Notes under the pieces: generated by a model | Told to the model about the DNA's origin: nothing | Seen by the model: the letters and a program-made list of their open reading frames with translations, nothing else | The model's database searches: none | Shown: piece by piece, positions 8,214-30,897 of the stretch | How positions within the stretch are numbered: position 1 is the stretch's first letter | How the letters are laid out: each line of letters starts with the position of its first letter | Program-made: the position numbers and the translations under genes | NCBI GenBank assembly: GCA_009785525.1 | Contig: WQWC01000019.1 | Coordinates: forward strand, 1 to 38,123 | Direction: 5' to 3' | Length of the DNA: 38,123 bases | Source of the DNA: Oscillospiraceae bacterium | Lineage (GTDB): Bacteria; Bacillota; Clostridia; Oscillospirales; Oscillospiraceae

Positions 8214-8245
8214 CTTATTATACGCAAATATAAGCACATTGTCAA
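8214..8245 (-). promoter_or_regulatory. Consensus promoter and imperfect operator of the toxin-antitoxin pair
   Basis: On the minus strand TTGACA (8240-8245) and TATAAT (8217-8222) are separated by exactly 17 bp, a perfect sigma-A promoter. A 21-bp imperfect palindrome with CTTAT/ATAAG ends (8214-8234) covers the -10 box and is a likely repressor site for the ribbon-helix-helix antitoxin. Confidence 0.8.
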
Positions 8246-9953: not shown

Positions 9954-10439
9954 CTATAGTTTCATCCGTGCCACAAGCTCGCCGTCGTCAACCTGTCCCG
10001 TTTCCGCAAATCCGAACGACTCATACAGCTTCTTTGCTACAACATTTGTCGGTTCATAAGATGTGTAGCAATAATCTGCCTTGCCATTGGGCATTTGCCT
10101 GATTTCGTCAAGCATCTGCGCCAGCGCTTGTCTGCCATATCCCTTTCCTTGGTGGCTTTTGTCAACCATAAACCGCCAAAAATAGTAGCAGTCTTCGTTA
10201 TACGTATCATCAAACTCCTTCTCGAAATAACCATACATGAGAAATCCCACCATCAGCCCATCTGCATAAATGGCATACGCTGTTGCAACACTGTTGATGC
10301 CTTTGCTGTTGAGGGCATAAGCTTCGCCCAAACTTTCGGCATTATGCGCCACAAAGTTGTACTGCTCTGGTGTTAACTCAAGTTCTATACATTCTTTCAT
10401 ATTATCGTCTAAAATTGAAATCTTTCTAAGCTCAATCAT
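9954..10439 (-). CDS. GNAT acetyltransferase, BltD-like (probable spermine/spermidine N-acetyltransferase)
   Basis: A 161-residue GNAT protein resembling B. subtilis BltD in overall layout: an N-terminal LRKISILDDN start, VGFLMYGYFEKEFDD, the acetyl-CoA loop HQGKGYGRQAL near residues 95-105, and YTSYEPTNVVAKKLYESFGF at the end. BltD acetylates spermidine and spermine, so polyamine detoxification is the best guess; other amines cannot be excluded. RBS AAGGAGGA lies before the ATG. The gene is preceded by a strong promoter, a structured leader and a terminator, and is followed by a second copy of the same hairpin-terminator module, so its expression probably depends on read-through of the leader terminator. 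Confidence 0.85.
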   Translation of the reverse strand: MIELRKISILDDNMKECIELELTPEQYNFVAHNAESLGEAYALNSKGINSVATAYAIYADGLMVGFLMYGYFEKEFDDTYNEDCYYFWRFMVDKSHQGKGYGRQALAQMLDEIRQMPNGKADYCYTSYEPTNVVAKKLYESFGFAETGQVDDGELVARMKL

Positions 10440-10481
10440 ATCGTAGTTATCCTCCTTAAATACTTTAAAGTTTTTCCCTGA

Positions 10482-10567
10482 ATAAAAACCGCCGCCAATT
10501 CAACATCGGCGGCGGTAGCATATACATCCGTTTATCGCACGGTGAAGCCTTACTTCACGCTTACACC
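10482..10567 (-). repeat. Hairpin-terminator module, copy B (in the leader)
   Basis: An 86-bp copy sharing most bases with copy A. On the minus strand it contains GTGAAG/CTTCAC, then a terminator stem ACCGCCGCC with GGCGGCGGT (10488-10516) and TTTTTATT. It lies 43 bases before the acetyltransferase ATG, so it should act as an attenuator rather than as a gene-end terminator. Confidence 0.8.
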
Positions 10568-10596
10568 GCTGCGGCGGACGCTATTTGCACTGTCAA
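10561..10596 (-). CDS. Possible 11-residue leader peptide
   Basis: On the minus strand a perfect AGGAGG (10605-10610) lies eight bases before a TTG that opens an 11-codon frame, MTVQIASAAAV, ending in TAA exactly where the duplicated hairpin module begins. Position between promoter and terminator is that of a leader peptide used in ribosome-dependent attenuation. Against it: TTG start, no run of a single regulatory amino acid, and the SD lies within a possible stem (GGCGGA with TCCGCC). Only the sequence arrangement supports it. Confidence 0.3.
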   Translation of the reverse strand: MTVQIASAAAV

Positions 10597-10713
10597 ATCA
10601 TCCGCCTCCTTTCGGTTTGAATTACAGTTAAACACCCGCGTTTTCCGCAAGCGACCGGTCACTCGCGCCCTAACGTCTCGAGCCGTTGGGATGGCGGTTG
10701 ATTAACTGTCAGT

Positions 10714-10742
10714 ATTATAGCCAATTCCCGGCAGTATGTCAA
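10714..10742 (-). promoter_or_regulatory. Consensus promoter of the acetyltransferase leader
   Basis: TTGACA (10737-10742) and TATAAT (10714-10719) on the minus strand with a 17-bp spacer: a perfect sigma-A promoter. Such strength for a gene behind a terminator is typical of attenuated units. Confidence 0.85.
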
Positions 10743-10818
10743 GCAAAATCGCGTTACATCTTCGTTACAGATTCCGCCGGACAGGATAGCGTGTCTTCGG
10801 CAGGCAATCATAAATCAC

Positions 10819-30756: not shown

Positions 30757-30897
30757 AACAAAACACCCGGCTCTGCGGAGCCACCCTCTTTACTAAAGAG
30801 GGCAAAGACGAGGGATTTTCTTTAGGGAGACACCATCTACCGTCCCCCGCCCTCTTTAGTAAAGAGGGTGCCGACCGCAGTCGGCGGGTGTTTTGTT
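30757..30897. repeat. 141-bp palindromic MITE-like element inside the his operon
   Basis: The ends are 13-bp inverted repeats (AACAAAACACCCG and its complement, 30757-30769 and 30885-30897). Inside each arm lies a short GC hairpin (GGCTC/GAGCC; GCCGAC/GTCGGC) and a 19-base palindrome CCCTCTTTA-n-TAAAGAGGG (30784-30802 and 30850-30868). It has no coding capacity. Half-copies occur at 15254-15300 and 27406-27453. The whole can fold into a cruciform and may end hisG transcription. Confidence 0.8.

Follow-up and report, generated by a model that had tools for sequence, protein, structure and literature searches.

Leader-peptide attenuators of resistance and catabolic genes bring together a strong promoter, a Shine-Dalgarno (SD) sequence, a short open reading frame (ORF), hairpins and a terminator in front of the enzyme gene. 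Type III toxin-antitoxin systems have a comparable order, with an RNA antitoxin made of tandem repeats, a leaky terminator and a toxin gene. Two families of structured leaders are also close to this arrangement, the T-box leaders (RF00230), with transcription attenuation in a long leader, and the L20 leader (RF00558), which ends in a terminator upstream of its gene. Among the riboswitches, the guanidine-IV class is described as most common in Firmicutes (PMC9788692, PMC7736828), and GNAT genes are listed among the genes downstream of guanidine-IV and Gd4v RNAs (PMC9788692). Both RNAs are described as two hairpins, the 3' one terminator-like, that a pseudoknot connects, with numerous conserved nucleotides within and beside it (PMC7736828, PMC9788692). 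The known spermidine riboswitch is described as a variant of SAM-I (PMC10853860).

We have compared with these systems a leader that precedes a GNAT acetyltransferase gene in a stretch of 38,123 nt (here called the window), whose host, judged from the relatives of the gene, looks like a member of a Clostridia lineage. All the elements listed above for leader-peptide attenuators are present, and the difference is that no stall-dependent antiterminator is visible here. The order of promoter, leader, terminator and gene had been taken in the original prediction as typical of attenuators, and the elements that we found support it. The elements of the leader are real and ordinary in kind, the leader turned up in one lineage only among the genomes searched, and a new riboswitch class is unsupported. 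We found no description of this leader in the literature searched.

Layout of the leader and its gene

The leader and the GNAT gene are on the minus strand. The sigma-70-type promoter (10742-10714) is a TTGACA-17-TATAAT sequence that coincides with the consensus at 12 of 12 positions, as had been predicted, and only one more perfect promoter of this type is found in the window, at 8245 on the minus strand. This second promoter heads a RelB antitoxin/YoeB toxin pair (8245-7641, minus strand). Between the promoter and the end of the terminator there are approximately 225 nt. The 5' domain (10709-10624) is formed by a closing stem, ACAGTTAA (10709-10702) with TTAACTGT (10631-10624), extended by an inner helix and placed around two hairpins, just as anticipated; the first one or two bases of this stem may lie upstream of the transcription start.

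The leader had been described as an untranslated stretch of 225 bases, and while the length holds, an SD sequence with a short ORF, the latter overlooked until now, is located inside it. The SD (AAGGAGG, 10611-10605) is followed after 8 nt by a TTG that opens an 11-codon ORF (10596-10561) for the putative peptide MTVQIASAAAV, with the TAA at 10563-10561. This ORF ends within the hairpin that opens the 3' module, and a mini-ORF, ATG-ATT-TGA at 10601, overlaps it. AAGGAGG appears eight times in the window, and since the other seven copies are each 7 to 12 nt before the ATG of an ORF of 49 to 783 amino acids, the copy in the leader is probably used as well. A leader peptide is thus probably encoded here, and the SD and short ORF expected of a leader-peptide attenuator are both in place. 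The further stem foreseen around the SD was also found, as a hairpin over the start of the leader ORF (10606-10594/10587-10573).

What we call the 3' module is the final 86 nt of the leader (10567-10482), and it contains a hairpin (10567-10559/10548-10541), a linker and an intrinsic terminator with a stem of 12 pairs (10516-10488) and a run of five T (10488-10484). The GC-rich terminator with its T5 is therefore as predicted, and close to the gene, although the distance from the T5 to the ATG at 10439 is 44 nt and not the 40 bases originally given. The GNAT gene (10439-9954) codes for 161 amino acids and has its own SD (AAGGAGG, 10457-10451). A second copy of the module is found behind it (9930-9844, minus strand; terminator at 9878-9850), followed by the infC promoter (9792-9764).

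The GNAT protein matches the Pfam family Acetyltransf_1 (4.6e-12) and is distantly similar to the spermine/spermidine acetyltransferases 2fl4 and 9dsb (E about 5e-9). No NCBIfam model scored above its own equivalog cut-off, and the polyamine-type, BltD-like enzyme initially proposed is supported as a distant likeness.

Folding, termination and the duplicated 3' module

The leader with its terminator (10712-10475) has a predicted folding energy of -98.9 kcal/mol (z -4.7; none of 200 shuffled sequences was as low), and without the terminator (10710-10517) the z score is -3.7 (0 of 300). The stem at the SD (10568-10619) reaches -3.1 and the 5' domain alone (10625-10710) -2.6, with two and three of 300 shuffles as low, respectively. 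This domain has two competing folds, since, depending on which ends are folded, its 5' end may in the minimum-energy structure be paired instead with the SD/start region. The closing stem is of a kind found at chance density, the window containing 51 perfect 8-mer inverted repeats 40 to 100 nt apart against 39 to 53 in five shuffles. When the window was divided into overlapping tiles of 190 nt on both strands (40 shuffles each, leader tiles included), 32 of 800 had a z of -3.5 or lower and 18 of -4 or lower; the leader tile gave -3.82 and the plus strand over the same stretch -3.65. The leader is therefore likely structured, yet in these models it is not exceptional, with 2 to 4% of the window tiles folding about as strongly. 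A strong inverted repeat, ACAAAACACCCG...CGGGTGTTTTGT, MITE-like by eye, is found at 30758-30896 of the window, where the tiles of the two strands have z scores of -7.9 and -6.4.

The terminator shows the GC-rich stem and following T run of intrinsic terminators, with a stem energy of -22.8 kcal/mol in copy 1 and -22.7 kcal/mol in copy 2, and its T run is short, as the first T of the T5 closes the stem and TTTTATT alone comes after it. From the terminator to the GNAT gene, the minus strand showed nothing that resembles a promoter. The strongest pairing of the leader with the 5' arm of the terminator amounts to -14.5 kcal/mol, and 365 of 500 shuffled leaders did as well or better, so no antiterminator above chance was found against shuffled leaders. 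With a ribosome placed on each of the 12 codons of the leader ORF, stop included, the terminator was formed in all 12 cases at equilibrium; the lowest of its nine outer pairs had a probability of about 0.85 at every position, the same as without a ribosome. In equilibrium folding, the ribosome position thus failed to alter the terminator in the way that would be expected of a leader-peptide attenuator. In nascent folds that end at 10505, 10500, 10498 and 10495, part of the 5' arm of the terminator pairs with the GGCGG adjacent to the SD, and this pairing may have a kinetic effect on switching.

The duplication of the 3' module was also overlooked in the original prediction. A DNA search of the own genome placed a second, 87% identical copy of the 86 nt (E 3e-23) at 9930-9844, immediately behind the GNAT gene and ahead of the promoter that infC has for itself. 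These are the only two copies in the genome, where the DNA searches of the genus and family gave one additional match to the leader, of 22 nt. Each copy comprises a hairpin of eight pairs with one bulge, the linker and the 12-pair terminator, and at both sites the homology ends just after the T run. The copies differ by 10 substitutions and one indel, and all 20 pairs are standard in both; paired positions take two of the 10 substitutions, a weak bias (Fisher p 0.10). The loop of the first hairpin has changed at four positions, and that of the terminator is unchanged. As copy 2 lies behind a gene and a separate promoter comes next, the role shared by the copies is most simply that of ending transcripts, and ending the GNAT transcript is the sole evident role of copy 2.

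Comparison with known RNAs and distribution among genomes

No Rfam family reached its gathering score at the locus, the SAM families included, in agreement with the earlier failure to recognise a known riboswitch class. The matches with E of 5 or less (SBRMV1_UPD-PKf, 20.4 bits; RAGATH-24, 19.8; TtnuCD33, 19.3) are all far below gathering. As a positive control, the same scan mode identified the infC leader as a diverged L20 leader (E 9e-7), and here the difference from the L20 family is apparent, as the adjoining infC leader matches RF00558 and the GNAT leader matches no family meaningfully. The infC leader (9753-9612, minus strand) scores 40.6 bits, under the gathering value of 58.7. Most genomes of the same genus have, by eye, infC leaders with a common core of the AAGCAGAACGGCATCCCCGTCCTCACCC type, and none of the eight same-genus infC leader loci that were scanned reached a gathering score.

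Several known systems were considered for the GNAT leader and discarded. RAGATH-24 stays at 19.8 bits against a gathering score of 45.3, and its third hairpin and UGAUGAC motif are absent from the alignment. The genome has eight T-box matches, three of them over the cut-off, all located off this contig. A type III toxin-antitoxin system does not fit, as there are no tandem repeats, the protein is a GNAT and the best PADLOC hit is to NsnC with an E of 0.008. Integron attC sites were rejected too, since no attC core sites could be recognised by eye and the module has only two copies in the genome. In the descriptions cited, guanidine-IV and Gd4v RNAs resemble this leader in having a hairpin on the 5' side and a terminator, and in the presence of GNAT acetyltransferases among the genes behind them; compared by eye with those descriptions, however, the pseudoknot with its conserved nucleotides is not matched. 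The terminator here is a plain stem of 12 pairs with a loop of 5 nt, and no loop-loop partner is kept between the copies, because the first loop changed at four positions and the terminator loop did not.

Homologues of the leader were searched for in genome sets that overlap and that include the own genome. Elsewhere in the 19 genomes of the genus, the DNA search gave only matches of 16 to 34 nt (15 non-own genomes, E of 1 or less), which we read as chance. No leader homologue was detected in 200 and 400 genomes of the family or in 315 of the order, in searches that scored the best two or three candidates per genome and that weak homologues can escape. In the set of 200, matches of 20 to 38 nt in 13 non-own genomes (E of 0.01 or less) were again read as chance. 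In the searches of the 400 family and 315 order genomes, two genomes (G696 and G925) were rejected because their match is confined to the terminator stretch. A pattern search of 398 genomes of the phylum returned the own genome only. The same result was obtained with a covariance model of the 5' domain in 300 family genomes, and the 3'-module model had matches in 63 of these 300 (own included, E of 0.1 or less); both models were built from one or two sequences and run with the stricter filters of Infernal, so distant homologues can escape. The five alignments of 3'-module matches that were inspected, obtained from six loci, fall mainly in the GC-rich terminator stem, and we consider these five generic terminators. 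Among viral contigs, the pattern ACAGTTAATCAACCGCC retrieved nine stretches, none of which matched the 5'-domain model, and two other patterns retrieved nothing; phages gave one unconvincing match of 25 nt and plasmids none. Conservation of the stems in related genomes was hence not detected in the searches of genus, family, order and phylum, an outcome that the original prediction had itself named as speaking against it.

The gene has relatives at 15 loci in public genomes, the nearest five of them in Defluviitaleaceae genome bins (52 to 74% identity). At three loci in such bins (L018, L019 and L022), GNAT-like genes of this family appear by eye to be in tandem with divergent paralogues, and at L018 a MITE-like element, also recognised by eye (761-924, bounded by AGGGCCTGTTCCCACTA/TAGTGGGAACAGGCCCTA), is located between two such genes. 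We saw no similar leader by eye in the flanks of seven of the 15 public loci, although L018 has only 276 nt upstream; the upstream stretches of L020 and L021, which look non-coding, were checked further with the models. The 5'-domain and 3'-module models found no match in 13 loci (L023-L032 and L082 were left out), including 11 with GNAT relatives: five public, two own-genome paralogues and four from other members of the genus. Since none of these 11 carries a match, the leader is, at the level of sequence, not generally tied to this GNAT family.

The neighbourhood points to G208 as the apparent closest relative. Its rpmI-rplT/infC region closely resembles the window by eye, and among the 18 other genomes of the genus it is the only one with a close copy (88% protein identity) of the neighbouring CmpB-like gene. 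The window and G208 (contig C64, locus L087) are 81% identical in DNA over 948 columns, and the similarity ends sharply at window position 10752, ten bases from the -35 box, with different DNA beyond in both genomes. The infC contig of G208 stops 46 nt upstream of the infC match, so that the second boundary lies outside. The GNAT gene was not found in G208 at an E of 1e-15 or less, in an assembly that is 85% complete.

Possible roles and origin of the leader

The reading that we prefer, with about an even chance of being right, is that of a leader that is specific to this lineage, ends prematurely and probably encodes a peptide, with the GNAT gene fed by read-through and the terminal module duplicated. 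RNA polymerase would start at the strong promoter and transcribe about 225 nt, namely the folded 5' domain, the short ORF together with its SD, and the 3' module. The majority of the transcripts would end at the leader terminator, and the GNAT gene would be expressed from those that read through, past the short T run. A copy of the module would have come to lie behind the gene and would end the GNAT transcript there, ahead of the distinct promoter of infC. From the sequence we infer a promoter and a terminator that work in vivo, a leader ORF that ribosomes translate, and a gene that is supplied by read-through. Against this reading, the module might serve for something other than termination, or the leader might be a small RNA in its own right. 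Should read-through be under control, the likeliest sensor would be the ribosomes at the leader ORF; the T-box matches and the diverged L20 leader suggest that this organism does use attenuation.

A regulated version, in which translation of the 11-codon ORF, or stalling on it, refolds the leader so that polymerase passes the terminator when the enzyme is needed, is possible, and we give it a rather low probability. The SD, the ORF that ends in the first hairpin of the 3' module and the nascent pairing of the terminator arm with GGCGG are what such a mechanism would use, but at equilibrium the terminator persists wherever the ribosome stands, the antiterminator pairing is no stronger than in shuffles, and no homologues of the leader were found in the genomes searched. 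It is doubtful that the leader is instead an independent small RNA gene, running from promoter to terminator before the GNAT gene, with its 3' end copied behind it. It does form a complete transcription unit with a strong fold, and recombination between the copies would, by our reasoning, delete the GNAT gene and leave a single promoter-to-terminator unit; yet the GNAT gene begins 44 nt further on, with nothing like a separate promoter for it on the same strand, and no homologue appeared among the genomes searched.

The ligand-binding riboswitch of a new class that was originally put forward is improbable in our estimate. The structured 5' domain with its two competing folds and the GNAT genes that lie downstream of guanidine-IV and Gd4v RNAs (PMC9788692) would suit it, but the claim that the leader senses a ligand met with no Rfam match, no homologues in the genomes searched and no antiterminator above chance. 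The 11 loci with GNAT relatives lack the leader, and the guanidine-IV architecture is unmatched. It could also be, though we hold this to be very unlikely, that the GNAT gene and an RNA 3'-end module form a cassette, which a leader driven by its promoter acquired on the downstream side, perhaps through a copy made of the 3' end of the RNA itself; the leader would then be the founding member of its kind of RNA, and recombination between the module copies would leave behind a small RNA gene that stands alone. The least probable account, to which we attach hardly any weight, is that a recent rearrangement brought these elements together by chance and without a function. It draws on the synteny with G208 that ends beside the -35 box, on a leader not found elsewhere, on a closing stem at chance density and on the fraction of tiles that fold alike; a promoter with all 12 consensus positions, an SD at a suitable distance from a start codon and a terminator of 12 pairs, all in the correct order, argue against it.

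As long as it lacks homologues, the leader is a candidate that does not warrant a riboswitch class of its own, and riboswitch-like looks alone do not imply a conserved sensor. An attenuator-like leader can arise or be acquired within a single lineage and, should the present one be regulated, a polyamine-type acetyltransferase would have a leader-peptide system in what appears to be a lineage of Clostridia.
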